Of a stretch of 22,003 nt of DNA, positions 4,909-21,283 are shown in pieces (within the stretch, counting starts at the first letter, position 1; the number at the start of each line of letters is the position of its first letter). The translations under genes and the position numbers were made by a program. The DNA is taken from the IMG/VR virus record IMGVR_UViG_3300049825_000898, positions 1 through 22,003 of that record; one strand, 5' to 3'. The notes below the pieces were generated by a model. It was not told the DNA's origin and searched no databases. It worked only from the letters and a program-made list of their open reading frames with translations. This DNA is from a virus.

Positions 4909-5243
4909 CCCACCAACAGCTGCATTCGATCATGGCTGACCCACGAACCCGCGCCGAAGCGATCGCGGATCCGGCGTTGCTGCCGGCGTTGCCGCAAACG
5001 ATCGATATGATCCAGGCGCTGCCGCTGCAGTTGGCCCCGTTCCAGGCCCGGTGGCTGCTCGGCAATTGCTCGGACGAAGTCCTCAAAGCGTTTCGCGAGC
5101 TCTACCCACAGATTGTCGTGCAGCGGTTTGGGCGCGGAAATGGCACCCGCTATCGCTACAGCAAATGCATTCTCTGTCGAGTGAGCAAGGTGCCCGTCGA
5201 GGTTGAGTCCCAGACCTCGACCTCCGCCAAGATACGCCCATGA
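4905..5243 (+). CDS. Small protein of unknown function
   Basis: I do not recognise this 112-residue protein. The start at ATG 4905 is chosen because it makes an ATGA overlap with the stop of the preceding gene; an earlier in-frame ATG at 4821 would overlap that gene heavily. The protein is mostly helical in appearance (residues 1-75, Leu/Ala-rich), followed by a basic stretch with GRGNGTRYRYSK near residue 80 and a Cys pair CILC. Such a helical plus basic layout could suit nucleic-acid binding, for example as a small packaging component, but this is speculative. It ends in another ATGA overlap with the next gene, so it is part of the terminase-portal operon. Confidence 0.6.
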   Translation: MTHQQLHSIMADPRTRAEAIADPALLPALPQTIDMIQALPLQLAPFQARWLLGNCSDEVLKAFRELYPQIVVQRFGRGNGTRYRYSKCILCRVSKVPVEVESQTSTSAKIRP

Positions 5244-5629
5244 CTACGACCGAAATCTCCCGTACCCAAACCCTCATCCATTTGCGGGAATCGATCGAGC
5301 ACTGGAACCGCCTGGCCACGGGCACGACTCTCGTTGGCGAGACTCATTACAGCGCGAGCTGCGCGCTGTGCGGGCTTTTCTGCCAGCGGCTGGATGATGC
5401 CAATGCCTGCATCGGGTGTCCGGTCATGGCCAAAACGGGCCGACGTGGGTGTGGAGGTACTCCATGGCATGACGTGGAGGAGTCCTACCAAGCGGGTGGG
5501 TTTGACTCGCCCGAATCGCCCGAATTCCGACGCGCTGCTGCGCAAATGCGCGATTGGCTGCAGCAGCTCTTGAATGATCTCCTGTCCTTTGAATCGGCAT
5601 CCATCCCAACCCAACTGACCGCATCCTAG
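5240..5629 (+). CDS. Small Cys-rich, zinc-ribbon-like protein
   Basis: This 129-residue protein has no function that I can name. Its clearest feature is a cysteine cluster: Cys41-x2-Cys44-x3-Cys48, then Cys57-x2-Cys60 and Cys71. Two CxxC knuckles separated by about a dozen residues are typical of a small zinc ribbon. Residues 8-26 and 94-118 look helical; the C-terminal helix is amphipathic. It is joined to the preceding gene by an ATGA overlap and stops three bases before the portal gene. Comparable small Cys-rich proteins of unknown role occur in many phage late operons, so a structural zinc site is more likely than catalysis. Confidence 0.6.
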   Translation: MTTTEISRTQTLIHLRESIEHWNRLATGTTLVGETHYSASCALCGLFCQRLDDANACIGCPVMAKTGRRGCGGTPWHDVEESYQAGGFDSPESPEFRRAAAQMRDWLQQLLNDLLSFESASIPTQLTAS

Positions 5630-5632
5630 ACT

Positions 5633-7897
5633 ATGAACACTGCCGAACGCTCCGCCGAAATCCCCGCCCAGGGCAACCCTCAGGCGGCGCCGAATGTCCC
5701 TGCCCTGATCAACGCCTTCCAGACCTGCTCGCCGTGGTCCCGCAATGGCTGGAATCGCGTGCGCACCAATGAGGACGTGCGCTTCCTCCGCTGGCCCAGC
5801 CAGAACGCCGAATGCAAGAAGACGGGCACACGAGATAAGCCGCCGTTTCCGTGGGAAGGCGCCAGCGACCAGAAGTGCCCCGTGGCGGATGACATCGTGA
5901 ACTCGATCGTGGACCACCTCGTGACCGCCTTCTGGCGTGCCTGGATGACGCCCAAAGCCGGCAGCCACGCGGTGAGCAACTACGCCGTGAAGCTGCTCGA
6001 TTACGTCGTCAACACCTGGCGGACGGATCACCTCGAGGAGCAGGTCGAGCTGGCGGCCAACTACCTCTACACCTACGGCTGGGTAGCCCTGCATCCCTGC
6101 TGGGACTTCGAGTTGAGCTTGGAGCAGCGCACGATCACTCTGGCCCAGTTGGCGGGCGTCGCCGAAACGCTGTCCAGACGTTTGGAAGGGCAGTCGGACA
6201 GCGTGCCGGAGGCGTTGCTGGGCTTGGTTCACCTGCCGGTGCTCATCGCGGATGCCAGCCGCGAGGCGCTGGCCATGGAGGCGTTGGATCTGGCGTGGCA
6301 GGCGTATGGCCTGCAGCAGCTCGGGCGGAGTGACATCAGCCTGCCGCCCCTGTCCACGGCCACGCTCCGTCGGGCGGTGCGGGATCTGCGGGCCCACGAG
6401 CAGGCAGACGTGCCCGTCCCCTACGTGTGCAAGGATCACCCGTCCCTCTACGCGCTCAAGCCCTGGGAAGAATTCCTGCTGCCTGGCAATGCCACCGACG
6501 TCGATCGCGTGCCCTGTTTTCAAGTCGATTGGCTCAGTGAAGTCGAGCTGCGCGCCAAGCAGCGCACGGAGGGCTGGGATCCCGGCTGGATCGGCGAGGC
6601 CCTCAAGCACAAGGGCAAGCTGTCGGCCTGGAGCCTGGGCACCACCGTGAACCGGCAGCCGGACGCAAGCATCAGCGCCGCCATGAGCGGGACTGGGCTC
6701 GAGAGCATTTACGAGCCGGCCACCACGCCCCATGAGCTCATTGAGATCGTCTATGCCGTCTATCGCATGGTCGACGACGATGGGGTGCCCGGCGTCTACC
6801 TGACCGTGCTGCATCCTGCCATCGGAAGGGCGGGAGATTCTAGCGTGAGCAAGGCGAGCAACCATGCCTGGCACGGCCTCCTCAAAGACGCCAGAGGCCG
6901 TGTGCCCTACGTGGTGGGCAAGCGGGAGCACGTGGCCCGGACCATCACGAGCAGCCGCGGCGTGCCAGAGATCTGCCAGAGTTGGCAGCGGATGACCAAG
7001 ATCCAGGTGGATGGCGCCATGGATTGGACGAGCATCGGGGTGCTCCCGCCAATCAACGAGTACGCCACGGCCATCAAAACGAACTACAAGTACGGACCGG
7101 CCGTGCGCAACACGGTGCAGCAGGGCAAAGAGCCGACGTTCATGCAGATCCCTGGGCAGGGTGTGCCGGTGGCGTTTGAGATGCTGGACCGGATTGAGAT
7201 GTGGGTCGATCGCTACTTCGGCCGGCGGAACACCAAGCTCCCGAACGAGGAGGCGGACGTGCGCATGCAAAAGAAGGTGAACTCCTTTCTGCTGCTGATG
7301 ACCCGCGCTCTTCTGCGCTCCATCGACCAATGCCAGGCACGCATGCCGGACGCTAAATTCGCCGAGATCACCGGAGCGCCGCCGGGCTGGCTCGAATCCA
7401 ATCGCGGCCAACCTGGTCTGCTGAGCGCCCGGCTGGAGTGCGACATCCGCGAGCTCAATCCGGAGTACGTGGCCGCGATGCTCAAAACAGTCAATGAAGC
7501 CGTGATCCCGCAAGATGTGAACGGCATGACCAATCGGGCGGCCTGGACCCGCGCGCAATGGCAAATGATCAATCCTCGCCTGGCGCGCAGCGTGGTCGTG
7601 GACGCCGGCGATGCCAGCGAACAGATGTTCGAGAAAGTGAAGAGTGACGTGGCGCTGATGTTTGTGGGCCAGGAGGCAAAGTACGTCGAGAACGATCCCA
7701 GCGCCAAGGCGAAGGTGGGCTACGTCCAGCAAATCCTCCAAGCCAACCCCAATTACACCGCCGCTCTGCAAAATAATGCCCGCTTTCGGGAGTTGCTCGA
7801 GAAGTATGTGACCAACCTCCAGTTCAGCATCACCCAGGATCAAAATAAGATGGTCGGGCGAGTCGGTGTGCAGCCCGATTCCATGGAGAACGCATGA
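5633..7897 (+). CDS. Portal protein (P22-like)
   Basis: This 754-residue protein should form the dodecameric portal ring through which DNA enters and leaves the head and to which the terminase and tail dock. The best signature is the N-terminal block around residues 70-95, PPFPWEGASDQ followed by VADDIVNSIVDHL, which is typical of large P22-type portals, preceded by a VRFLRWP segment. Size, position after terL and placement before scaffold and capsid agree. Residues 150-245 are a Leu/Ala-rich region that may be an insertion relative to simpler portals. The C-terminal 100 residues are helical (VGYVQQILQANPNY), as in portal crown or barrel regions. ATG 5633 has no visible Shine-Dalgarno. The 3' end overlaps the next gene by four bases. 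Assignment rests on family resemblance plus gene order. Confidence 0.85.
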   Translation: MNTAERSAEIPAQGNPQAAPNVPALINAFQTCSPWSRNGWNRVRTNEDVRFLRWPSQNAECKKTGTRDKPPFPWEGASDQKCPVADDIVNSIVDHLVTAFWRAWMTPKAGSHAVSNYAVKLLDYVVNTWRTDHLEEQVELAANYLYTYGWVALHPCWDFELSLEQRTITLAQLAGVAETLSRRLEGQSDSVPEALLGLVHLPVLIADASREALAMEALDLAWQAYGLQQLGRSDISLPPLSTATLRRAVRDLRAHEQADVPVPYVCKDHPSLYALKPWEEFLLPGNATDVDRVPCFQVDWLSEVELRAKQRTEGWDPGWIGEALKHKGKLSAWSLGTTVNRQPDASISAAMSGTGLESIYEPATTPHELIEIVYAVYRMVDDDGVPGVYLTVLHPAIGRAGDSSVSKASNHAWHGLLKDARGRVPYVVGKREHVARTITSSRGVPEICQSWQRMTKIQVDGAMDWTSIGVLPPINEYATAIKTNYKYGPAVRNTVQQGKEPTFMQIPGQGVPVAFEMLDRIEMWVDRYFGRRNTKLPNEEADVRMQKKVNSFLLLMTRALLRSIDQCQARMPDAKFAEITGAPPGWLESNRGQPGLLSARLECDIRELNPEYVAAMLKTVNEAVIPQDVNGMTNRAAWTRAQWQMINPRLARSVVVDAGDASEQMFEKVKSDVALMFVGQEAKYVENDPSAKAKVGYVQQILQANPNYTAALQNNARFRELLEKYVTNLQFSITQDQNKMVGRVGVQPDSMENA

Positions 7898-8361
7898 ACT
7901 GGAAATTGTGGCAATGGCCGGCCCGTTGCGCTGCGGAGCTCAATGCCATCTGCGCCCAGCGGGACCGTTACATGAAGGAGCGGGATACGTGGCGCCGTGC
8001 CGCCATTGAGTCCGGGGAGGAGAACTCCCGGCTCGAGCAGCGATTGCGCGAGCGGGATGCCGTGATCGCCGATCTCCAAAAGCAAATGGGCTGGCGAAGG
8101 GTCCCCCGCGTCGCCCCGGAAACCGATCAGCAACTCCTATCCGCGCTGGCCGTCGTGGACGATACCACGCCTTTGTGGCGGGCCGTCCATCAATTGATCG
8201 ACCTGCACGACTGCGAGGAGATGGAAGCGCTCTTGCGACCTGGCTTGGACGATCAGGCCCGCCATTACAATGCCGGCCGCGTGGCCGTGCTCACGGACCT
8301 GCGTTTCAGTCTGGTGCAAAAGTGGCGAGAGGCTCAACGGGTTAATCAGGAGACGCAATGA
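7894..8361 (+). CDS. Coiled-coil protein of unknown function
   Basis: This 155-residue protein starts with an ATGA overlap on the portal stop, and a GGAG sequence lies about seven bases upstream. Residues 16-68 form a charged, heptad-like helix rich in Glu and Arg, which suggests a coiled coil. The remaining half is helical with a pattern of Leu and Trp (LWRAVHQLIDLHDCEEMEAL). No enzyme motif or signal peptide is visible. Between portal and scaffold genes phages often place small head-assembly or accessory proteins, so a minor structural or assembly role is a reasonable guess, but nothing in the sequence proves it. Confidence 0.6.
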   Translation: MNWKLWQWPARCAAELNAICAQRDRYMKERDTWRRAAIESGEENSRLEQRLRERDAVIADLQKQMGWRRVPRVAPETDQQLLSALAVVDDTTPLWRAVHQLIDLHDCEEMEALLRPGLDDQARHYNAGRVAVLTDLRFSLVQKWREAQRVNQETQ

Positions 8362-8630
8362 GCGCCATCGACTTCGCCATCGCGTACCGTAACTGGCTGG
8401 AGAGGCGCGCCCCAACCAGAGTCGAACCGCGGGAGCCAATCCCGGATGAGCATGGTCTGCCCGCCGTCCGCGACGCGATGGGCTGCCGCATCGGCGAGCA
8501 TCTGCTGGCGGAACCTCTCCGCCTGGCCGTGCGGTTGGACTGGGAGGCGGACGTGCTGGCCAAAGTCCGAGCAGGCTCCGGCCTCTGGAATGCGTCAAAA
8601 CATCGCCGGAACCGGACGACAAGTGCGTAA
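8358..8630 (+). CDS. Small protein of unknown function
   Basis: This 90-residue protein begins in an ATGA overlap with the preceding gene, and an AGGAG sequence at about 8348-8352 provides a convincing ribosome site. It is rich in Arg, Ala and Glu, with no membrane segment, signal peptide or recognised motif. It ends in a basic tail (SKHRRNRTTSA). It is the last gene of the packaging-portal operon; the longest non-coding stretch of the window follows directly. Coding status is supported by the overlap and ribosome site more than by any homology I can recall. Confidence 0.55.
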   Translation: MSAIDFAIAYRNWLERRAPTRVEPREPIPDEHGLPAVRDAMGCRIGEHLLAEPLRLAVRLDWEADVLAKVRAGSGLWNASKHRRNRTTSA

Positions 8631-8714
8631 ATCTTAGGGAAAATGACGCCTAACTGCCTTCTCAGCGAAAAAGACATCTCCGTGTCTTAGGAAACTCGCA
8701 TTTCGCACTCCGTT

Positions 8715-8750
8715 AAGTGCCATTTAGTGCCATGGAGTGCCATTGAGTGG
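8715..8750. repeat. 10-bp tandem repeat, AGTGCCAT core
   Basis: Three consecutive 10-base units read AAGTGCCATT, TAGTGCCATG and GAGTGCCATT, followed by a partial unit GAGTGG. The core AGTGCCAT is identical in all three; only the bases flanking it change. A period of one DNA helical turn places each copy on the same face of the helix, which is what would be expected for cooperative binding of a regulator. A stray GCACT lies just upstream in inverse orientation. It could also be a simple slippage repeat. Confidence 0.75.
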
Positions 8751-8769
8751 AAACACGCCCTTCCCTTCC

Positions 8770-8810
8770 AGGCCCCGCGTGCGGTAGAGGTCCAACCGAA
8801 CGCGGGGCTT
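8770..8810 (+). terminator. Strong hairpin, terminator-like
   Basis: An 11-base outer stem (AGGCCCCGCGT against ACGCGGGGCTT, one G-T wobble) is followed by a single G/A mismatch and a 4-base inner stem (CGGT/ACCG), closing a 9-base loop. The 3' arm leads into a short TTTG rather than a long T run. It is stable enough to stop transcription from the upstream operon, but the weak T tract leaves open an RNA-processing or regulatory role. Confidence 0.55.
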
Positions 8811-8835
8811 TGTCGATTCGCCCGCCTTCCAGGTG

Positions 8836-8867
8836 AAGCCGGTCCGGAGTGGATGCCGGCCCGGCTT
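8836..8867 (+). terminator. Second hairpin with matching architecture
   Basis: A 7-base outer stem (AAGCCGG/CCGGCTT), one T/C mismatch and a 4-base inner stem (CCGG/CCGG) enclose an 8-base loop. This repeats the design of the hairpin 26 bases upstream: outer stem, one mismatch, 4-base inner stem, 8-9-base loop, 3' arm ending in GGCTTT. The stem sequences differ, so the two are not simple copies. It ends 43 bases before the scaffold ATG and could be a tandem terminator or a leader structure. Confidence 0.45.
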
Positions 8868-8914
8868 TAACCGGACGAATTGATTCCGCCGACATGCCGG
8901 CGTTAAAGTCATGA
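8849..8914 (+). CDS. Possible 21-residue leader peptide
   Basis: A GTG at 8849 opens a 21-codon frame (MDAGPALTGRIDSADMPALK then Ser) whose TGA overlaps the scaffold ATG as ATGA, the same junction used by confirmed gene pairs here. An internal ATG at 8894 would give only six codons. The scaffold gene lacks a Shine-Dalgarno, so termination-reinitiation from this frame would explain how it is translated. However, the frame is short, its GTG lies within the loop of the upstream hairpin, and no ribosome site is evident for it. Confidence 0.2.
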   Translation: MDAGPALTGRIDSADMPALKS

Positions 8915-10095
8915 GCGAACCAACGACCATTCCAGAAGCGTCTGCTGAGAGCCAGGCGCCAGTCTCAGGGGCTGTCCCCCCTGCCGGAAGCGCGCCAGCC
9001 GCGCTTTCGTCCGCCCTGCTCAGCGAGCGCATCAAGGCGCAGCTCACGGGCGCGTCACCCGCAATCACGCCTCCCGCGCCCAGCCCAGAACCATCGCTAG
9101 GCGCGTCGGGCACACCCCCGTCCCAAACCATTCCCCCTCCGTCTCCGGCGCCAACGGATCCGCCGTCAGACTCTGATGATGACTCCGATGACGAACCGGC
9201 CGGCTTGCCGCCGCGCGCTCTCGCGGCCTTGAGCCAGGCGCGGAAAGCCAAACGCGAAGCGAAAGCTCGCGCCAAAACGCTCGAACAGGAAAACGCCGAA
9301 CTCCGAGCGGAGCTTGCTGGCAAACCCGGCAAGCCTGCGGACCATGACGCGGCCACGGCGGCCACTGCCGTCCCCACGACCACTGAGCTGCGCATTCCTG
9401 AACTGGTCCAGGCCGAGAAGGTGGTGGGTGAGCAGGAAGGCCTGCGCAACTGGGCTCGGACCCAGACCTCGGTCTTGCGTCGCGCCATTGATGCCGGTGA
9501 TGTCGACGCGGTGATCAGCCGACTGCAGTCCCAGGTCAAAGACCACAACGTCACGCTCCCCACTGATCCGGAAGGCGTGATGGAGTGGATCGACGGCGTG
9601 CGGACTACGGCGGAGGATCGCCTCGAAGAGGCTCGTCTGGATGTGCGGTTCATTCGACAGCGCGCCCAGACCCAGGGCGCCGCCATGCGCACCGAAAGTC
9701 AGGCCCTGGCGAGCGAATGGGCGCCCAAGATGACTGACGCCACCAGTGAGCAGGGCAAGAGGGCCTCGATGATTCGGAATTACTTTCCGGCCCTCGAGCA
9801 GCATCCGCTCGGACCCCGGTTCATTGCGGCGGCGGTGCGCGGTTGGGAGGTCATCACTGCTGAGCTCAGTGCCAAGCCTGGTCAGGCTGGAGCCGCCTCG
9901 CCGGCCATGGCAGCCGCCTTACCGCCGAAGCCGGGCGCCAAACTGCCCGGAGCGCCGGCGGTGGTCCCGGCCCGGCCAGATGAAGGCGCGGAGTCCAGCG
10001 GGTCCCTCGCGGCCAAAATGCGCGCAGCGACGTCGGAGACGGAGCGGGAACGGTTGAAAACGGAATGGGTGAAAGCCGCTTTGGCTGGGCGATAG
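8911..10095 (+). CDS. Probable capsid scaffolding protein
   Basis: This 394-residue protein should act as the internal scaffold that guides capsid assembly and then leaves or is digested. Its composition fits: residues 1-85 are Pro/Ser/Ala-rich and probably disordered, 86-95 form an acidic patch (SDSDDDSDDE), 102-137 are a Lys/Glu/Ala-rich coiled coil, and 170-330 are largely helical. Another Pro/Ala linker leads to a C-terminal basic amphipathic helix (residues 368-394, RAATSETERERLKTEWVKAA), the kind of element that binds coat protein in other scaffolds. It lies directly before the capsid gene. No protease motif is visible, so it is not obviously a prohead protease. Identification rests on position and architecture rather than recognisable family sequence. 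Confidence 0.7.
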   Translation: MSEPTTIPEASAESQAPVSGAVPPAGSAPAALSSALLSERIKAQLTGASPAITPPAPSPEPSLGASGTPPSQTIPPPSPAPTDPPSDSDDDSDDEPAGLPPRALAALSQARKAKREAKARAKTLEQENAELRAELAGKPGKPADHDAATAATAVPTTTELRIPELVQAEKVVGEQEGLRNWARTQTSVLRRAIDAGDVDAVISRLQSQVKDHNVTLPTDPEGVMEWIDGVRTTAEDRLEEARLDVRFIRQRAQTQGAAMRTESQALASEWAPKMTDATSEQGKRASMIRNYFPALEQHPLGPRFIAAAVRGWEVITAELSAKPGQAGAASPAMAAALPPKPGAKLPGAPAVVPARPDEGAESSGSLAAKMRAATSETERERLKTEWVKAALAGR

Positions 10096-12492: not shown

Positions 12493-13530
12493 ATGATTCG
12501 CCGCGTGGATTACGTCGACCTGCTCCAGCACAGCGCCCGCTGTGCCGGGCTGGATCCGGACACGCTCAGCACGGGCGAGTTCCGCGACTTCCGACTGTTC
12601 CACAGCGATCGTCTGCAGCGCATCTGGGAAGCGCGGGACTGGGTCGAGATCAAGCCGGTGGAGAAACGCTACTTTCGGGATCTGTACGCCAGCGCCACCT
12701 CCTACGCGGCCGGAGCGGAGGTGTTCTACGCCGGTCCACGGGCCTACTACCAGATGCTGCGCACGGGCGGCGTGTCCGGCCAGGCGCCCGCGACGCTGAG
12801 CGGCACCTGGATCCCCAATCTGGCCTATTGGGCGGAGTGCCAGACGGAATACACGGCGGATGAATACGAGGCGAGCGCCACCTACGTGCAGGGTGATCAG
12901 GTGTATTACAGTGTCACTGATCGTTACTACCAGCTCTTTGCCGCCACGAGTACGGGAAACCTGCCGACCGACACCAGCAAATGGGGTGTCCTGACGCCCT
13001 TCGATCGCTACGTGGCCTATGCTCAAACGGGTCTGACGGCGTTTGACCAGGCGTTTGCGGCCTACGATCGCGATCCGGAACTCGACGGGCGCGCCCGAGC
13101 CTTGACGGCCTTCCAGAGCGAGTTGGGCCTCCAGGTGATGGACGACGTCCCGTGGGCCTGGGTCGACTTCCGGCGCCGGGTCCCCTCCTTGTCGGGCGAC
13201 ACGTGGGACTCGACCGCGACCTATGCCGTGGGCGACCAGGCCTATTTTTCCAGCGGAACGGCGCGCGGGAACTTTTACGATTGCATCACGGCCACGAGCG
13301 CGGGCGAGTCGCCCCTCACCGCCGCCGCCAAGTGGAGCCTGGTGCAGATCCCCTTTGCCTTCCGTGGATGGCTGATTCACGGCGCCGCGGCGGACTACGC
13401 CCGGCCTGACGGCAACCTTTCGATAGCGGATCGGGAGGAGGCCCTGGCCCGAACCGCCCAGGAGCAAGCCACCCTCACCTTTGATGCGCAGTCCGCACAC
13501 GCGCATCGCACCACTGTGTTCACCCGCTAA
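12493..13530 (+). CDS. Probable neck/adaptor protein with three beta modules
   Basis: This 345-residue protein begins with a helical segment (residues 6-50, DYVDLLQHSARCAGLD... and RLQRIWEARDW) reminiscent of head-tail adaptor proteins in podovirus-like phages. Three related modules of about 45-50 residues follow at roughly 65-113, 123-170 and 236-288. Each reads like Y-x-A-S-A-T-Y-x2-G-x2-V-Y-Y, then an aromatic pair, a T/S-G-x-x-P turn and a closing W. This pattern resembles small carbohydrate-binding beta modules of the CBM5/12 type. Helical adaptor-like sequence lies between modules two and three and after the third, so the modules look inserted. The protein has no signal peptide. A neck role is inferred from place and N-terminus. 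Confidence 0.55.
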   Translation: MIRRVDYVDLLQHSARCAGLDPDTLSTGEFRDFRLFHSDRLQRIWEARDWVEIKPVEKRYFRDLYASATSYAAGAEVFYAGPRAYYQMLRTGGVSGQAPATLSGTWIPNLAYWAECQTEYTADEYEASATYVQGDQVYYSVTDRYYQLFAATSTGNLPTDTSKWGVLTPFDRYVAYAQTGLTAFDQAFAAYDRDPELDGRARALTAFQSELGLQVMDDVPWAWVDFRRRVPSLSGDTWDSTATYAVGDQAYFSSGTARGNFYDCITATSAGESPLTAAAKWSLVQIPFAFRGWLIHGAAADYARPDGNLSIADREEALARTAQEQATLTFDAQSAHAHRTTVFTR

Positions 13531-13544
13531 CACCTCACCTCACC

Positions 13545-13901
13545 ATGGGCTATACCATTCCAATCCAACAGGCGGACCGGCGCTATCCCGTCGCCGCCAC
13601 CAATCCTCTGGCCGCCTCCGCTGTCGTGGCCGCCACGCCGGGCTGGTTGCGCGGGATCTACGGGTACAATTCCGGCCCGTCGCAATTCATCCAGATTCAC
13701 GATGCAGCGGCACTGCCCGCTGACACCACCGTGCCATTGTTTTCGCTGCCGGTGGCAGCGGGCCAACCCTTCTCCTTTGTGTTCTCGGAAGAGCTCCGCG
13801 TCACCAACGGCATTCAACTCTGCAATTCCTCAACCGCCGCCACCAAAACCATCGGGGCTGCTGACGTTCAATTCCTATGCACCTATCGCTTGCGCGCTTA
13901 A
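13545..13901 (+). CDS. Small beta-rich virion protein
   Basis: This 118-residue protein is of a type I associate with phage structural regions: a beta sandwich with a segment like GIYGYNSGPSQFIQIHDAAA (residues 37-56), a P-L-F-S-L-P-V strand and a highly characteristic end, RVTNGIQLCNSSTAATKT followed by IGAADVQF. It probably decorates the head or tail. It has no signal peptide, in contrast to the gene that follows and overlaps it by 25 bases. The ATG lies in a C/A-rich leader without a Shine-Dalgarno. Function is not known to me. Confidence 0.6.
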   Translation: MGYTIPIQQADRRYPVAATNPLAASAVVAATPGWLRGIYGYNSGPSQFIQIHDAAALPADTTVPLFSLPVAAGQPFSFVFSEELRVTNGIQLCNSSTAATKTIGAADVQFLCTYRLRA

Positions 13902-15295
13902 TTCTCATCCTGACGCTTTGTTTGCCTTCGCTCGCCGTCGCGCAGTTGGGTGGCGGCATTTTCACCGGGAACGGTCTGTCGTCCAGTGTCCTCTACGTCA
14001 ACAGTGGAGCCAACCTGTCGAACGCATTCCGCTCAATGCGTTCGGGGATGACCATGTTTATTGGACCGGGCCTTTACAACACGCCATCCCAGCAAGGGGA
14101 CTGGCTCTTGACAAGCTTGGGGCTCACTAATCTGGTAAACTTTGCGATCATCGGATCCGGTCCAGGTACAGTCCTCTCCAATAATCTTTTTGGCAGTACA
14201 ATTGCCATGGAACGGTGCTCTAATTTCGTCATGCAGGGGTTTACGATGATCGGCACCCGCACAAACAATGGTGGTGCAACCCATAATACCTACGCCGGCG
14301 CGGTCATGGGGGTTGCCACAAATGGTTATGGAACGTTCCGTGATGTTACAATTACCAATTTTGACACGCACGGCATTTCGTTGAATGGCGGAACGCCTGG
14401 AAATCCAGTTGGGCCGGGCTCAATCGGCATGCGTTACCTAAATTGTAACTTTTACGGGATTGGAACAACAAACTATAACAACGCAGGGCCGGGAACACCG
14501 GGGGTTGACGGTGTTGCGGTAAACGGAGTCTCGAGCGACACTGCATTCCACAATTGTCGTTTCCTCGGCAATGTTCGCGACATCGAGATATATGACGTGA
14601 TCGACACAAGTAGCCTTTCGATTTCTGGATGCTACTTTGAGGCAACCGAGGACGCTGCCATCTGGCTCGGGCATCAGAACAATTCGGTCAAGATCCGAGG
14701 TGTCTCCATCATTGGAAACTACTTCAGTGGTCGCACCAATATCGCGCCCGCGTTGTTCAGGCCGTTTGCGATCAGGTTTGCCGGTTGTGATGGCCTGGTG
14801 ATTCAGGGGAACTATTTTTCTGGATACGCGTACCAGATTGCCAACGTTTCCGCGGCGGACTACCCGATCCTCAATCTGGATGTCTCCGGCAACACGTTTT
14901 TTGGTCCGTACTTCGATGGGATCCAGCTGGCCTACGATTCTGGACTTACGACGCGAGCCACCAATGTCGTCGTGCGGCATAATAATTTTGAGTTTATAGG
15001 TCGACACGGGTTGAGGTTTGCCATATCCGCCGGAGAAGTGTCGTGGAACAGATTTCACCTCACCGGCTTGGCCGGCGGGGGAGGCGTGGGCTATGGGATG
15101 GAAGTGGGCGCGGCGCCATTTGTCACCAATGTGAACTCCATCATCAGGGAAAACTTGTTTCGCGACACGGCGTCCGGAGGTATTCGGCTCGAAACTGGGT
15201 CGAGGACAAATTACGTCATCCGCAATCGCATGGACGGAGCGGGCACCGTCGTCAGTGACGCTGGCGTTGGCAATTCCATCACCACATTCCCATGA
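13877..15295 (+). CDS. Secreted right-handed beta-helix protein
   Basis: This 472-residue protein opens with a signal peptide (residues 1-22, MHLSLARLILILTLCLPSLA then VA, cleavage before Gln23) and continues as a parallel beta helix of the pectin-lyase type. The fold start is visible at 49-100 (MRSGMTMFIGPGLYN, NFAIIGSGPGTVL), followed by many N-G-x-x-I and G-N-x-F turns (NCNFYGI, GCYFEA, GNYFSG twice, RHNNFEFIGRHGL, RENLFRDTASGGI). Phage tailspikes use this fold to bind or cut surface sugars, but tailspikes normally have no signal peptide. Catalytic residues cannot be assigned by eye. The gene is visibly richer in A/T (rows near 50% GC by count versus about 65% in the neck gene), suggesting recent acquisition. 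It overlaps the genes on both sides. Confidence 0.75.
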   Translation: MHLSLARLILILTLCLPSLAVAQLGGGIFTGNGLSSSVLYVNSGANLSNAFRSMRSGMTMFIGPGLYNTPSQQGDWLLTSLGLTNLVNFAIIGSGPGTVLSNNLFGSTIAMERCSNFVMQGFTMIGTRTNNGGATHNTYAGAVMGVATNGYGTFRDVTITNFDTHGISLNGGTPGNPVGPGSIGMRYLNCNFYGIGTTNYNNAGPGTPGVDGVAVNGVSSDTAFHNCRFLGNVRDIEIYDVIDTSSLSISGCYFEATEDAAIWLGHQNNSVKIRGVSIIGNYFSGRTNIAPALFRPFAIRFAGCDGLVIQGNYFSGYAYQIANVSAADYPILNLDVSGNTFFGPYFDGIQLAYDSGLTTRATNVVVRHNNFEFIGRHGLRFAISAGEVSWNRFHLTGLAGGGGVGYGMEVGAAPFVTNVNSIIRENLFRDTASGGIRLETGSRTNYVIRNRMDGAGTVVSDAGVGNSITTFP

Positions 15296-15792
15296 ACCGC
15301 CTTCGCCTTATTTCTCCCATTTTCGTCTTCGTCGCAGTCGTGATCGGCCACGCGGCAATCGCCGCCCCGTCGGTCACGCTCGCCTGGAATGCCAACAGTG
15401 AGACCAACCTCGCCGGATATCGCCTGTATTGGGGGCCCGCCGCCCGCACCTACGGCCAGAACCAGACGGTGCCCGTGCCGACCACCATTGCGACGGTGAC
15501 GAATCTGGTCCCGACGAAAACCTATTTCTTCGCGGTGACCGCCTACACCACTGATGGACTCGAATCGGATTACTCCGACGAGGTCAGCTACACGGTGCCG
15601 CCGCCCAGGCCGGTGGCACCACGCGACCTGCGGATCGTGACGAGTCTGCAGGCCAGCCAATCACCAAGTGGGCCATGGACAAACCTATGGACAATGAGCC
15701 AACCCGTCCCGGCTATGCCGGCGAAATCGCCCCTGGACCTTCCGGTCGACGGCGGATGGTTTTATCGGAGCCAGAGCCAGCTGACAGAGTGA
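15292..15792 (+). CDS. Secreted fibronectin type III protein
   Basis: This 166-residue protein has a signal peptide (residues 1-24, hydrophobic core ISPIFVFVAVVI, cleavage near AIA-AP) and one fibronectin type III domain at about 26-103. Diagnostic segments are VTLAWNANSETNLAGYRLYW, VTNLVPTKTYFFAVTAY and ESDYSDEVSYTV. A C-terminal segment (115-160, SLQASQSPSGPWTNL to GWFYRS) resembles the short 'S.....W.....FYR' endings that I associate with secreted Verrucomicrobiota proteins. Fibronectin domains in phages usually mediate loose sugar or surface contacts. The gene overlaps the beta-helix gene by ATGA, so both are coupled. As an exported protein it would act in the periplasm or at the cell surface. 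Confidence 0.75.
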   Translation: MNRLRLISPIFVFVAVVIGHAAIAAPSVTLAWNANSETNLAGYRLYWGPAARTYGQNQTVPVPTTIATVTNLVPTKTYFFAVTAYTTDGLESDYSDEVSYTVPPPRPVAPRDLRIVTSLQASQSPSGPWTNLWTMSQPVPAMPAKSPLDLPVDGGWFYRSQSQLTE

Positions 15793-15914
15793 AAGCGGCT
15801 TTGGCGAACGACGAGACAAAGCGCCGAATCTACAAATATCTGCATGCCAACGCTGAGCTACAAGAAATGGATGAACACTCTGTTTGGGATGTTCATCCAG
15901 GGCGGGGCGCATAG
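15789..15914 (+). CDS. Possible 41-residue nested protein
   Basis: A GTG overlaps the stop of the fibronectin gene (GTGA) and opens a 41-codon frame, MKAALANDETKRRIYKYLHA onward, whose second half overlaps the holin-like gene in another frame. It would be soluble, charged and helical. The stop-start junction imitates real gene pairs here, and overlapping small genes are common in lysis regions. Nevertheless it is short, with no ribosome site or recognised family. It may simply be a ribosome pathway to the holin start at 15844. Confidence 0.25.
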   Translation: MKAALANDETKRRIYKYLHANAELQEMDEHSVWDVHPGRGA

Positions 15915-16143
15915 CGCCGTGGCGACCTTCGGCCTGGCCGGCGCCCACGCGATGGGCGTGCCCGTCCAGCCGTTGGATCTCCAACAGGTCTCGGCAATTT
16001 TCCTGGCCGGAGCGGTCATCAAGACCATGCGGTTCCTCGAGCATTCTCCAGTGCCGGAATTCAACGGCGCCGGCACCGACACCACCCCGCCGTTCACCCA
16101 AACCACCAAAGACCATGAAAACAACAATGAAACGCTGCTCTAA
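15844..16143 (+). CDS. Holin-like small membrane protein
   Basis: This 99-residue protein has two predicted membrane segments: about 12-34 (TLFGMFIQGGAHSAVATFGL) and about 46-65 (QQVSAIFLAGAVIKTMRFL), followed by FLEHSPVP at 64-71 and a polar tail. The layout, Gly/Ala-rich first helix and 'yLkqSPLP'-like motif after the second helix match a family of small phage membrane proteins usually annotated as holins. A holin would form lesions in the inner membrane to time lysis. No endolysin is visible in the window, so the lysis role is inferred. The gene overlaps the outer-membrane barrel gene by 29 bases, which ties the two together. Confidence 0.6.
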   Translation: MPTLSYKKWMNTLFGMFIQGGAHSAVATFGLAGAHAMGVPVQPLDLQQVSAIFLAGAVIKTMRFLEHSPVPEFNGAGTDTTPPFTQTTKDHENNNETLL

Positions 16144-16666
16144 ACTTCTCGTCCTTCTGTCCTTCTGCGCCGCTGTGATCTACACGGCCCGAGGAGCCGA
16201 ACCGGGGACTCCCCCGGCGCCAGCACCGGTCGACGCCTTTAGGGCCTACGCGGCGGGACACTGGCAGATCTCGCCTTTCTACGCCTATCAGGCGACGGAG
16301 CTCGGTCGATTCAACGGCCGGCAGGCCGCCGGCGTGGCGGTGGGCTACCTGCTCGCGGACAACATCGAGGTGGAAGTCTCCGCGCTGAGCTACCGATGGC
16401 AGCGCGATCCGGTCATCGACACGATCGACGAGGCTGCAGTCGATTTTAAGGGCTTTCTGCCTCTCGGTCACAGCGGGCTGGCACCCTTCGGGTTGATTGG
16501 CTACACCCGGGATCACGCGTTGGATCAGAATCTCATGAATGCCGGCGCCGGCCTCGACTGGCGCTATCGATGGTTCCACGCGTTCGTCGATGGACGTTAC
16601 CGCCAGTCCTTCGTGAGTCACGGCAATCAATTCCTCTTCCGCCTGGGAGCGGGAATCACGTTTTAG
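16115..16666 (+). CDS. Secreted outer-membrane beta-barrel protein
   Basis: This 183-residue protein (start at ATG 16115; ATG 16127 is an alternative) has a basic n-region and hydrophobic core (residues 1-28, KLLVLLSFCAAVIY, cleavage near ARGA-EPG), a Pro-rich spacer, then alternating-hydrophobicity strands: HWQISPFYAYQA, AAGVAVGYLLADNIEVEVSALSYRW, AAVDFKGFLPL, APFGLIGY, GAGLDWRYRW, FHAFVDGRYR and LFRLGAGITF. The protein ends in Phe, the classic signal for the outer-membrane assembly machinery. Size and strand count suit an eight-stranded OmpX/OmpW/OmpA-like barrel. Phage lambda's Lom is a comparable phage-encoded outer-membrane barrel in the tail-fibre region. Surface conversion or blocking of a phage receptor are the natural hypotheses. 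Confidence 0.75.
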   Translation: MKTTMKRCSKLLVLLSFCAAVIYTARGAEPGTPPAPAPVDAFRAYAAGHWQISPFYAYQATELGRFNGRQAAGVAVGYLLADNIEVEVSALSYRWQRDPVIDTIDEAAVDFKGFLPLGHSGLAPFGLIGYTRDHALDQNLMNAGAGLDWRYRWFHAFVDGRYRQSFVSHGNQFLFRLGAGITF

Positions 16667-16672
16667 GGTCGC

Positions 16673-18313
16673 GTGATCCGTTGCCTCCAAACGTTTGGAC
16701 TCGTCGTGGTGCTCGTGGTGCTCGGGAGCGCGCCGGAGCTCCGTGCTCAGATCCCGCGCACCAACGCGACGCCCGTGCGCTCGGTCCTCATGCTGCCGGC
16801 GCTGTGGGACGGAAAAGTGTTTTCCAACTTCGTCTTCCAATTGGCGGGCCGGGACGAGCTCTTGCTCTGGCCGGCCGGTGCGCCGGCGGCGCCGACGTCT
16901 GTCGCTCCGGTGGTGGGAATCGCTCCGGGCACCAATACGACCGTCAGCACCAACGCAACCGCGACGACTACCACCTACCGCGTGCATGCGACGGGATCGA
17001 GCTCGGGAGGTGTCACCAACGTGGTCAACGCGTCGACCAATCCTCCGGGCGGAGTCGTAGGATGGTTGGGCCCCACGAATAATGGCGACGTCCGAGTCAA
17101 AACCCTCAGCGTCTCGGGAGCGTTGGTCGCAACCGATCAGGGCACGAACGTCGACCTGTCGACCAGCGGAGGCGTCGGCGAGGCGAACTTTAACGCGGAC
17201 GTGTTCACCAACAGCGTGGTCCTTGGTTGGGTCTACGACAAGATCGGCGTCACCAATCGCCTCCGCACGTTCCGCGTTGGCTTCGGATTGAGCGGTACGA
17301 ACGAAAGCACCAATCTGGTGGCGGCGGTCGATGCCTCTGTAATCGCGGGTCAGACCGATCTGAATGCGGCGTCCAATGTCTTGCGCGGGGACATCGCGAA
17401 CCTCCAAGGGGCCACCAACGGTCTTCATGGGCGCGTTGGAAATCTGGAGGGCGCCACCAACGGGCTCCGCACGGACGTGCTCAATCTGCAAGGCGGGACC
17501 AACGGCCTTGCCACCCGCGTGGCAAACCTGGAAGGCGGAACCAATGGCCTCCGCACGGACGTCTTGAACCTTCAGGGGGCAACCAATGGACTGCGGACGG
17601 ACGCCCTAAATCTGCAAGGTGCAACGAACGGTTTACGAACAGACGTATTGAATTTACAGGCCATAACCAATCGGAATGCCAACCAGTTTGGGGCCAGCGC
17701 AACGCTGACCGTAAAGGATGGCGCCAAGTTCACGAATGTGGTTCTCGAGGCCACGTCGACGGCCTACCAAATGGGAGTCTCGAACCTGGTCGCAACCAAT
17801 GCCGCCGTGCGAGCTGGAGCGTCCGCAAGCAACGCCTGGATCGGTGGAGTCATCTATGTCGATCTGGCGTCTCGGACAAACCACTCGACGGTCAACAGCT
17901 ACACAAATCTCGCGACGTTCACGCTACCGGCGCATGCGTTGACGAACAGCGGAGATACTGTGGAGGCGACCTGGACAGGAGTGTACCTATCCGGCACCAA
18001 CCGGTTTGTCATGGGCTTCGGATCGATCACGAATGTCGTCGATGTCTCCGGCGTCACCAACGGCGCCGCCGTGCCCGCCGGCTGGCGTGCCAGCCTGCAA
18101 ATCACCAGAACCGCAAACACCGCCCAGCGGGTTGCGGCGTGGATCCAGTTCAACCTCGGATCGGGTATCACCTACGCCTACACGAACCGCCTAATCGATA
18201 TCGCCGAGACCAACGGAATCGACAACCTCATCCGGTTGCAGGGCTCGGCGATCCGAGCGGGTGGTATCACGAACAATTTTCTGGCAGTGGAGTTCCGGCC
18301 TGGCCCCCGCTGA
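16673..18313 (+). CDS. Signal-peptide-bearing coiled-coil fibre protein
   Basis: This 546-residue protein starts at GTG 16673, six bases after the barrel gene, with a signal-like N-terminus (residues 1-25, core FGLVVVLVVLGSA, cleavage near LRA-Q). Residues 30-240 are Thr/Asn/Val/Gly-rich beta sequence. Residues 243-331 carry six 14-residue repeats of the form NLQGATNGLRTDVL plus half a unit; Leu2 and Leu9 at d positions and Thr6 and Val13 at a positions give two heptads per repeat, as in a trimeric fibre stalk. The C-terminal part (340-546) is beta-rich and probably the distal tip. Frequent 'TN' pairs give it a distinctive composition. It lies before a gp10-like tail gene, so a tail fibre is likely, yet a signal peptide is unexpected for one. 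Confidence 0.65.
   Translation: MIRCLQTFGLVVVLVVLGSAPELRAQIPRTNATPVRSVLMLPALWDGKVFSNFVFQLAGRDELLLWPAGAPAAPTSVAPVVGIAPGTNTTVSTNATATTTTYRVHATGSSSGGVTNVVNASTNPPGGVVGWLGPTNNGDVRVKTLSVSGALVATDQGTNVDLSTSGGVGEANFNADVFTNSVVLGWVYDKIGVTNRLRTFRVGFGLSGTNESTNLVAAVDASVIAGQTDLNAASNVLRGDIANLQGATNGLHGRVGNLEGATNGLRTDVLNLQGGTNGLATRVANLEGGTNGLRTDVLNLQGATNGLRTDALNLQGATNGLRTDVLNLQAITNRNANQFGASATLTVKDGAKFTNVVLEATSTAYQMGVSNLVATNAAVRAGASASNAWIGGVIYVDLASRTNHSTVNSYTNLATFTLPAHALTNSGDTVEATWTGVYLSGTNRFVMGFGSITNVVDVSGVTNGAAVPAGWRASLQITRTANTAQRVAAWIQFNLGSGITYAYTNRLIDIAETNGIDNLIRLQGSAIRAGGITNNFLAVEFRPGPR
17399..17664 (+). repeat. 42-bp in-frame tandem repeat (coiled-coil stalk)
   Basis: Six 42-base units begin at 17399, 17441, 17483, 17525, 17567 and 17609, and a partial unit starts at 17651. 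Each encodes 14 residues (two heptads). Units differ mainly at third codon positions while the protein stays the same, showing selection on the coiled coil rather than recent slippage. Length could change in steps of 42 bases without breaking the frame. Confidence 0.9.
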
Positions 18314-18314
18314 A

Positions 18315-20615
18315 ATGCCCCTCAACACTCGCCAAGCCGATCTCGACGAAGCGCCCCTCCTGGATGGCGACGAGCGGTTTTTGGGAGTCCAGATGCGGGG
18401 TCACCCGGCTGGTCTTGGACCGGGGTGGGTCGCTAGCGCGATCAATTGCCGCTTCCGTGAGGGCGTCATGGAATCGCGATTAGGCAGTGTCAAGCCGGCG
18501 TGGCTCAATCAGATCTCCGGCACCTCTGTACGGGCCTGGGATTCCATGCAGGGTCGCGGCGCTTATCGCGATGCGACGGGGCGCCAGTGGACGCTCGTGG
18601 CTGTCAATGGTCAAGTGCGTGCCATCCTGCCGCACAACGCGCCGCGGACGGTCCCGCTACCGGCAGGTGTAACGCTCGTCGGCGGCGAGCAATTTTTGCA
18701 GTTCGGCACCGCGGTGCTTCTGTTGCGTGGAACAGAGGGAGAGACCCTGCAGTTGACCGACCTGGCGGTCGGGTTTCAGCCGGTCCCAGCTCCGGTCGTG
18801 CCGGGCTTGAACGCGATTCCCACGGCCCGCCGCGGTGCGGTCGCTGGCGATCGCGTGTGGCTCGTCACGACAGGCAACCAGATCTGGGCCAGCGATTTGC
18901 TCGATCATACAAGCTACCATCCTCTGAATCAGTTCAGCGTAGGCGATGGAGCGGAAGAGCTGGTGACGGTCGCGCTATTCGGCCAAACCAGCCTCATCGT
19001 GTTTCTTCGCCGGACGGTCTATCGACTTACCGACGTGCTCAACGCGGATGCCCAGGGGCTGCTGACCAATACCACGGCGCCGCGCGTGACGGCTCGCTAT
19101 GGCTGCATCGCCGCGGACAGTGTCGTGGACGTGGGCACTGATCTGTTGTGGCTCTGTGAGGAGGGCATCGCGAGTCTCACGCTGACCGAGCAAGGCGAGG
19201 TGCAGAGCGGAGTGGGACCGAATCGGCCTCCCATGTTTTCCGACCCGATTCATCCGATGATTCAGCGAATCCGCTGGGATTACGCCGGCAACGCTCAGGG
19301 AACGTTTTGGGATGGCAAGCTTTACATGGCCGTTCCGATCGATGAAGCAGAGGTCCTCGGCTACGAACGGTTTTCCGTCGGCCATTTCATGTATTTCGGA
19401 GCCACCATCCAAGTTCAACCGATCACGATCGGCCGGCGCTATCGGTGGATCCAAGGCGATAACCAGGTGAGCTTGACCAATGGCTCCCAAACGTTGACGC
19501 AGAGTGGAGAGTTTGTGGCATCAAACACGAGCGTCACGCTCGCGATGTCGGGGTTTAGCCCAGGAACGATGGTTGGCAGCCTCAAAGAGGTCTATCGCGG
19601 CGTCAACAATGCGGTGCTCGTCTACGACTTCAAGGCGCTCCAGCCGGGCTGGCAGGGTTACGATGAAGCCGCGGGGCTGCTCTTTCCCCAATACTGGTTT
19701 CGGCGGGACTACAATGGGAAGGAGCGCTTATTTTTCGTCGCCGGCGACGGCTGGGGCACGCTCTACGAGGAGGGCTACGAGGATGCCATCGGCCAGCCCT
19801 ACGTCGACGTCATCGTCTCCACCGAGCCTGTCGCGGGCAACACGGTGCAGGTAAATGGCGGCACCTTGGTCACGGCCGACGCGTTCTCGCCGTCCGCAAA
19901 CTCGGGATCCAATTGGGGCCGCGGCATGAGCTACGGCGCCGGTGGAGCGCTGTGGGCAGATGAACCAGGCGACGGCGGCTACAACCAGGCGGAGACAAAC
20001 CATTGGGCGGCGCCGAACACAGTCCCGGTTTACTTACCCGCCACCAATCCGGCGTACGCCAAAGGAGTCCGATTCTTCTCGACCACCGGCCAGCGCCCGA
20101 CCGTCACGACCACGGGCGCCTGGTCTACAGTCAACGTGTATCAGTGGCAGGACATCCGCATCGAGCTGATCAGCCGAGGCTATGGCACGCCGGCCCGCCT
20201 TGAGCGAAAATCTGCCTTGAAACTGCAGGTGCTATGCGAAACATGGAATCCAGCCTACTCGGTAGCGTTGCGATCTGACGGGATCAGCGAAGAGACGACG
20301 TTCGTCGCTGCGCAGACTCGCAGTCGCACGCGCTACGACCGGCCCTTCGATCGAGCTGCATGGAATCCCGCCAACACGGCCGATGATTTCACCGCGCCCT
20401 ACCGACAGGACTATAGTCTCAACCTCAGCACGGCCTTCAAGCTGGGGCAAGGGCTTGGCGTCGGTCTTCACCAGGCGGCGGAGCATACGATTGCCGTGGC
20501 TGGGCGGGCGCGGGCGCACCAGATTCGCATTAACAACACCACTGGCCGCCTGCGCCTGGTAGGCCTGGGCTATGAAGGGCGGCGACGCGAGCGCGGGCAG
20601 GGCATCAAGGTCTGA
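18315..20615 (+). CDS. P22 gp10-like tail stabilisation protein
   Basis: ATG 18315, two bases after the fibre stop, gives 766 residues; an earlier ATG at 18261 would overlap the fibre gene. The first 60 residues (PLLDGDERFLGV, GWVASAINCRFREGVMESR, LGSV) are typical of proteins that coat short-tail hubs. A propeller-like segment follows: DRVWLVTTGNQIWASDLLDHT (179-199), then VALFGQTSLIVFLRRTVYRL (228-247), then YGCIAADSVVDVGTDLLWLCEEGI, the order seen in P22 gp10-type tail stabilisation proteins ('event site... drives ... instrument' blades). The rest is beta-rich with aromatic repeats and ends in a basic tail. It would plug or extend the short tail and help close the DNA channel. Together with the absence of a tape measure gene, it supports podovirus morphology. 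Confidence 0.65.
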   Translation: MPLNTRQADLDEAPLLDGDERFLGVQMRGHPAGLGPGWVASAINCRFREGVMESRLGSVKPAWLNQISGTSVRAWDSMQGRGAYRDATGRQWTLVAVNGQVRAILPHNAPRTVPLPAGVTLVGGEQFLQFGTAVLLLRGTEGETLQLTDLAVGFQPVPAPVVPGLNAIPTARRGAVAGDRVWLVTTGNQIWASDLLDHTSYHPLNQFSVGDGAEELVTVALFGQTSLIVFLRRTVYRLTDVLNADAQGLLTNTTAPRVTARYGCIAADSVVDVGTDLLWLCEEGIASLTLTEQGEVQSGVGPNRPPMFSDPIHPMIQRIRWDYAGNAQGTFWDGKLYMAVPIDEAEVLGYERFSVGHFMYFGATIQVQPITIGRRYRWIQGDNQVSLTNGSQTLTQSGEFVASNTSVTLAMSGFSPGTMVGSLKEVYRGVNNAVLVYDFKALQPGWQGYDEAAGLLFPQYWFRRDYNGKERLFFVAGDGWGTLYEEGYEDAIGQPYVDVIVSTEPVAGNTVQVNGGTLVTADAFSPSANSGSNWGRGMSYGAGGALWADEPGDGGYNQAETNHWAAPNTVPVYLPATNPAYAKGVRFFSTTGQRPTVTTTGAWSTVNVYQWQDIRIELISRGYGTPARLERKSALKLQVLCETWNPAYSVALRSDGISEETTFVAAQTRSRTRYDRPFDRAAWNPANTADDFTAPYRQDYSLNLSTAFKLGQGLGVGLHQAAEHTIAVAGRARAHQIRINNTTGRLRLVGLGYEGRRRERGQGIKV

Positions 20616-20617
20616 CT

Positions 20618-21283
20618 ATGTTCACCGTCACACTTATTCCAGGAACGTACTGGGCGAGCACAGACAACGTGTCTGATGCCAAGCTCAACCTCACGGCCAA
20701 TCCCACCGTCCAGGTCAATGGAAACTTTGCGGACCTGACCGACTACGCCGCGGTCAGTGCTACGACCAAGACGTTTACCGCGTTCGACCTCGGCAACGAT
20801 ATCCTGCGAGTCGCCGGCGGCCATGGCGCCAGCTTGGGCCAGCGGGTGAAGGTGAGCAGCTCTACCACGTTGCCCACCGGGCTTTCCGCCAGCTACGAGT
20901 ATTACCTGCGGCCGGACACCACGAACCCAGGCACCGACTTCACGCTGCACTACACTTCCGCCGGCGCCACGGCCAACACGGACCGCGTGGATGTGAGCGC
21001 GGCGGGCGCGGGCACCCACACGCTGAGCTATTTCGCTTACGCCAGCGGCGCGCCGCTGATCTTCGATGCGGGCGGCGCGACGTGGGAGAAGGGCCTCGTG
21101 AGCCCGGAGAACTTACCCGAGTATGTCGGGGCAACGGCCAGCACGCCGGGCGTGCGGGGAGCGGTACCGCCGTCGGCACCGTCCCAACGTGACAAGTATC
21201 TCCGCGGTGACAATGCGTGGGCGGATCCCACGGCCGGCCTCTCCACGGGGACCAATCTTTTCTTTTACGCCAACCTCTATTGA
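20618..21283 (+). CDS. Probable fibre or tip protein
   Basis: This 221-residue protein is beta-rich with Thr, Ala and Gly in abundance and no signal peptide. A segment at 176-201 (TPGVRGAVPPSAPSQRDKYL followed by RGDNAW) is a motif that recurs in phage fibre and appendage proteins, usually just before the distal domain. The middle region (61-115) resembles small beta domains that precede such motifs. It starts two bases after the gp10-like gene. It is probably attached to the tail or head surface, with host-contact function likely but unproven. Confidence 0.6.
   Translation: MFTVTLIPGTYWASTDNVSDAKLNLTANPTVQVNGNFADLTDYAAVSATTKTFTAFDLGNDILRVAGGHGASLGQRVKVSSSTTLPTGLSASYEYYLRPDTTNPGTDFTLHYTSAGATANTDRVDVSAAGAGTHTLSYFAYASGAPLIFDAGGATWEKGLVSPENLPEYVGATASTPGVRGAVPPSAPSQRDKYLRGDNAWADPTAGLSTGTNLFFYANLY

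Follow-up and report, generated by a model that had tools for sequence, protein, structure and literature searches.

What is a run of genes for predicted exported proteins, two of them fibre-like or beta-helical, doing among the tail genes of a phage late operon? Exported morons are already known, and the late region of phage lambda encodes exported envelope proteins with lom and bor. Virion proteins of tailed phages assemble in the cytoplasm, and signal peptides on fibre-type proteins are therefore unexpected. We analysed such a run in the IMG/VR record IMGVR_UViG_3300049825_000898, a linear viral fragment of 22,003 bases that is called the window here.

The window virus and the slot that holds the block

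Every gene of the window lies on the plus strand, in the order helicase, DHH phosphoesterase, terminase, portal, scaffold, major capsid protein, tail proteins, the block, and further tail proteins. The capsid protein matched the phiM5/BroderSalsa podovirus-type family, and terminase and portal matched those of phage C75C1 at 24-25%; by these sequence matches the virus is a podovirus-type contig. A portal profile retrieved 80 viral relatives with a best identity of 35%. The portal was also present in two genome-scan contigs, both from Verrucomicrobiota, and the portal family occurred in 10 of 241 Verrucomicrobiota genomes, one copy lying within a 3.75-Mb contig. Judged from this distribution, Verrucomicrobiota is most likely the host phylum, in agreement with the fn3 homologues found in Verrucomicrobiota chromosomes. 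As single queries against viral contigs, the major capsid protein, the beta-helix protein and the 18261/18315 protein retrieved no relatives, and the fn3 protein retrieved one. The genes of the block and its borders are the following.

12493..13530, plus strand: tail protein in the position of tail tubular protein A, left slot border (blastp to 26 relatives' proteins, best 9.6e-26)
13545..13901, plus strand: small protein of ~100 aa; relatives have a counterpart by position, not by sequence, right before the fibre gene
13877..15295, plus strand: exported right-handed beta-helix protein, 472 aa (Pfam Beta_helix 2.4e-10; predicted signal peptide)
15292..15792, plus strand: exported single-fn3 protein, 166 aa (Pfam fn3 2.5e-9; predicted signal peptide; phage and Verrucomicrobiota homologues with signal peptide)
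15844..16143, plus strand: small, weakly hydrophobic protein, holin-like by position only
16115..16666 (or start 16127), plus strand: small exported outer-membrane beta-barrel candidate, 183 aa, C-terminal Phe (homologue among Verrucomicrobiota outer-membrane proteins)
16673..18313, plus strand: exported coiled-coil fibre protein, 546 aa, GTG start, NGLRTDVLNLQGAT-type repeats (predicted signal peptide; phrog_7599 3.1e-4)
18315..20615, plus strand: conserved tail protein, head-closure Hc3 / tubular B-like, no signal peptide, right slot border (11 relatives, best 9.5e-39)
20618..21283, plus strand: fibre-like protein without signal peptide

The tail protein at the left border is ~100 aa longer than in the relatives and carries a weak CBM_5_12 carbohydrate-binding match (E=0.009) and two or three similar short repeats. 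The gene after the block probably starts at the ATG at 18315 and not at 18261; the C75C1 homologue of its product is annotated 'head closure Hc3'. By position on the gene maps, the 20618 protein corresponds to the relatives' fibre at this place, and blastp found no homologue of it among the portal relatives.

The tight spacing described in the original prediction was confirmed, with an ATGA overlap at 15292, 29 shared bases between 15844 and 16115, and 6 bases before 16673. In addition, 13877 overlaps the 13545-13901 gene by 25 bases, and a gap of 51 bases precedes 15844. No convincing promoter or terminator was found inside the block: the counts were at or below shuffle expectation, and the plus strand held no promoter-like site. 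The spacing and the lack of internal signals are consistent with the single transcriptional unit that had been proposed.

Gene order is conserved among the relatives and runs from terminase, portal, scaffold and capsid through the 12493-type tail protein and the ~100-aa protein to the fibre, the small membrane/lipoprotein genes and the 18315 homologue. The slot flanked by the tail genes on one side and the 18315 homologue on the other contains, in about 80 relatives, a fibre without signal peptide and small membrane or lipoprotein genes. Homologues of the five block proteins were not found by blastp among these portal relatives. Since the borders are kept and the block proteins lack homologues there, the block replaces the slot's fibre and lysis genes. 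Some prophages of the same portal lineage in Verrucomicrobiota carry in this slot a long exported protein directly after a fibre without signal peptide (L251, 384 aa; L250, 397 aa); the SP-like N-terminus of the 397-aa protein was missed by our heuristic scan. In L251, a 963-aa fibre ORF (reverse complement, 4943-7834) has an SP-like stretch ~125 residues inside (RRLKRAAVAVLASTAFSAFGQ).

Signal peptides and domains of the block proteins

Signal peptides were called with a heuristic of our own, not SignalP, that asks for a positive n-region, a hydrophobic core and small -3/-1 residues. The four genes for which Sec-type signal peptides had been predicted, 13877, 15292, 16115 and 16673, were all positive at their called starts. 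In each case this is the first in-frame start, a remote TTG upstream of 16115 lying inside the neighbouring gene, and the n-region is positive, the core 10-13 residues long and the -3/-1 residues small; the predicted cut sites are at about A22 for 13877 and about A24 for 15292. None of the other window genes was positive. That virion proteins normally carry no signal peptide was borne out in the relatives, where the heuristic called 0 of 246 core virion or packaging proteins. Their genes as a whole gave a background of 18/1042 (1.7%), none over 250 aa, and the post hoc chance of four or more positives among five genes is about 4e-7. After shuffling of residues 2-35, 4-23% of sequences still passed; part of the signal is thus due to composition. 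An N-terminal scan of the block proteins found no lipobox.

The domain classes originally assigned to the block were also supported, with direct Pfam matches for the beta-helix and fn3 proteins, a coiled-coil fibre, and a candidate barrel backed by a host outer-membrane homologue. The beta-helix gene occupies the position of the relatives' fibre without signal peptide. Its GC content of 0.536 is the lowest of the listed genes (0.57-0.69 elsewhere), and this deviation suggests recent acquisition. The 15292 protein has its predicted signal peptide directly before one fn3 domain, as in exported fn3 proteins of phages and Verrucomicrobiota; those in Verrucomicrobiota chromosomes are 35-45% alike to it, and one adjoins capsule/EPS-type genes. 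The 15844 protein (best 19-residue hydropathy mean 1.28) found no family match in our searches and is a weak holin candidate.

The 16115 protein is 25% identical (E=1.4e-7) to an exported 185-aa Verrucomicrobiota chromosomal protein, which itself matches OMP_b-brl at 6e-6, slightly below the curated cut-off, and both end in an aromatic residue. Direct searches with 16115 gave a weak OprF match and no Pfam barrel family; backed by its host homologue, it is a candidate outer-membrane barrel. Single-sequence AlphaFold models of the barrel and the beta-helix reached pLDDT 32 and 41 and were unusable. The 16673 protein showed a weak coiled-coil match to the tail/adsorption protein of Lactobacillus phage Ldl1. 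Pfam gave no YadA-type anchor on it, the only such match being a weak one (0.017) on the separate barrel. Family searches of the fibre and beta-helix proteins for a virion-docking domain found none.

Predicted exported fn3 and fibre proteins in other phages

We scanned viral contigs with an fn3 motif chosen regardless of the N-terminus, and 62 readable contigs matched. A signal peptide lay upstream in 54 of the 62 and directly before the fn3 domain in 47, and diverged fn3 families kept the signal-peptide character while residues changed. The neighbours were mixed (tail, endolysin, replication and other genes), and the gene for an fn3 protein with signal peptide is thus a widespread accessory that is not tied to lysis; confinement to lysis cassettes was rejected on the same ground. 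Short exported single-fn3 proteins are common in environmental phages, in varied contexts (contigs L171-L233 and L113-L132). The closest phage fn3 protein, 59% alike to that of the window, is encoded outside a late operon (L207).

A longer run was present in a siphovirus (G263 and G262, 99.97% alike and thus one phage) whose head genes are unrelated to those of the window. It encodes an exported 579-aa fibre, an exported 339-aa protein, an exported Invasin_D3/Big_1 protein and an exported YadA-like fibre of 614 aa, and continues with an fn3 protein with membrane anchor, a small membrane protein and an exported 193-aa protein ending in Phe. The last three genes follow the window's order of fn3, small membrane protein and exported Phe-ended protein; the fn3 proteins are 45% alike, and the Phe-ended protein is not clearly homologous to the window's barrel (E=0.013). 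Downstream of the exported barrel-like gene of this phage lies a gene for a patatin-like protein (L136, 2053-2931, minus strand). In L225 an exported fn3 protein, a membrane/coiled-coil protein and a lipoprotein follow one another, and L227 has five consecutive exported proteins including fn3 beside a Pfam beta-helix, adjoining siphovirus tail genes. Two further genomes (G264, contig L138; G265, contig L139) encode exported fibre-like proteins in which the signal peptide is followed by canonical phage-fibre sequence. SP-like starts also occurred on small proteins encoded near capsid genes (L138, 4494-4964; L136, 18517-18954, minus strand).

To compare fibres with and without signal peptide, we scanned viral contigs for the canonical C-terminus ..YVCxATNTWKRAALSTW. 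Among the matches listed, at least 66 distinct complete fibres carried this module, 64 without and two with a signal peptide (L266, L268), to which G263 is added. The shorter motif WKR[AV]AL was found in 1 of 388 Verrucomicrobiota genomes. On the Verrucomicrobiota chromosome G099, the module belongs to an exported fibre of 701 aa that carries a GDSL lipase domain; membrane proteins and a lipoprotein are encoded next. The prophage fibre loci of this chromosome (L256 and L257) lie near 3.72 and 3.76 Mb, and a second copy close by is fragmented. In L268 the domain after the signal peptide shares 38-45% identity with the N-terminal regions of phage tailspikes (colanidase, tail collar), and in the homologues tested this domain begins at the first residues, without a signal peptide. 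Some exported fibres, at least, thus descend from genuine tail fibres. The L268 gene (reverse complement, 8198-8995) is followed by two genes for further small exported proteins.

The original prediction had suggested that the block may be a host-envelope programme or fibres assembled outside the cell, and had noted no described system of this composition. Exported proteins in one late unit, unlike the relatives' virion proteins, stood up to our analysis; a fixed five-gene system did not. The complete set was found in none of about 80 portal relatives, so its parts may be unrelated passengers, and parts of it recur in other phages.

A proposed late cassette for the host envelope and its alternatives

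Several known systems resemble the block in part. As with lambda lom, a small exported outer-membrane barrel, here a candidate, is encoded beside fibre genes in the late region; unlike at lom, four exported proteins are encoded in a gapless run, of which two are fibre-like or beta-helical, and no sequence link between the window proteins and Lom was found. P22-type tailspikes share the right-handed beta-helix class and the fibre-slot position. However, the window protein has a signal peptide in place of their N-terminal virion-docking domain, and we kept the block proteins out of the tailspike family because that domain was looked for and not found. Holin/endolysin/spanin cassettes have the same slot position, a small membrane protein adjoins exported envelope proteins in the block, and the relatives have lipoproteins there. 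The window, by contrast, is without endolysin, lipobox or Rz-like pair and has fn3 and a barrel instead; a spanin identity was rejected for want of a lipobox. No endolysin was recognised within the 22-kb window, and its gene may lie outside because the contig is a linear fragment. A signal peptide with a coiled-coil fibre, or an exported beta-helix with a separate outer-membrane barrel, also recalls YadA trimeric autotransporters and two-partner secretion. Unlike the former, the window fibre ends without an anchor barrel; the latter was rejected, as the mature barrel of about 156 aa is far too small for a TpsB and has no POTRA.

We consider it about an even call that the block is an exported late envelope/fibre cassette, moron-like in the manner of lambda lom and partly built from tail-fibre genes. 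The heuristic signal peptides, slot position, domain classes and recurrence are observed, whereas we infer export, destination and function. The block would be an accessory cassette occupying the variable fibre/lysis slot in the late operon of a Verrucomicrobiota podovirus, and its four exported proteins would be made late alongside virion proteins and exit the cytoplasm via Sec. The small barrel would insert in the outer membrane, and the fn3 protein, beta-helix and coiled-coil fibre would occupy the periplasm or extend to the cell surface, to be released at lysis. The trio of fn3 protein, small membrane protein and barrel may modify or weaken the outer membrane around lysis, or block re-adsorption. 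The beta-helix and the fibre, built from or modelled on tail-fibre genes, could be exported binding or degrading proteins that target surface polysaccharide.

Host-derived morons of the lom/bor type, which entered the slot singly and serve superinfection exclusion or lysogenic conversion with no role in lysis, are an unlikely reading with several points in its favour: barrel and fn3 protein resemble host secreted proteins, the GC content of the beta-helix gene deviates, and genes for fn3 proteins with signal peptide occur in many phage contexts beyond late operons. However, the tight overlaps and the lack of an internal promoter tie the genes to late expression, the order fn3, membrane protein, outer-membrane protein recurs in the unrelated G263, and no integrase was seen in the window, a partial contig. 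It is improbable that the hydrophobic N-termini are neither cleaved nor used for export and instead help to anchor or assemble ordinary virion proteins. All genes do lie in a structural operon, and composition alone passes the scan in a share of shuffles. Yet n-, h- and c-regions are present in four successive proteins, export is needed for a Phe-ended barrel that has an outer-membrane homologue in the host, and fn3 families conserve signal-peptide character despite divergence.

We also think it unlikely that the fibre and the beta-helix serve as true receptor-binding proteins, crossing the periplasm and attaching to tails once the cell has lysed. Both genes lie in the fibre slot, fibres with signal peptide and canonical fibre C-termini exist in G263, L266, L268 and a Verrucomicrobiota prophage, and in L268 the signal peptide precedes the tailspike domain that starts related phages' proteins. 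Late docking is possible, as P22 tailspikes bind tails in vitro. On the other hand, the window proteins gave no docking domain in family searches, a separate fibre-like gene without signal peptide lies downstream at 20618, and few fibres with the shared C-terminal module carry a signal peptide. The wider proposition that some tailed phages export genuine receptor-binding fibres via Sec to the periplasm and add them to virions only once lysis has occurred, the window block being one case with an added outer-membrane module, seems to us rather doubtful.

The literature, searched by title, abstract and term count, yielded no description of signal peptides on fibres, and as far as titles and abstracts were searched, runs of exported proteins including fibre types in a tail-fibre slot are not described. 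There is a small chance that this is categorically new, if exported fibres reach virions. The recurrence in unrelated phages, one with a tailspike N-terminal domain, raises the question whether fibres are exported as free weapons, as decoys or as late-mounted virion parts. Where the whole fibre slot is annotated 'tail fibre', envelope-directed genes may be overlooked.
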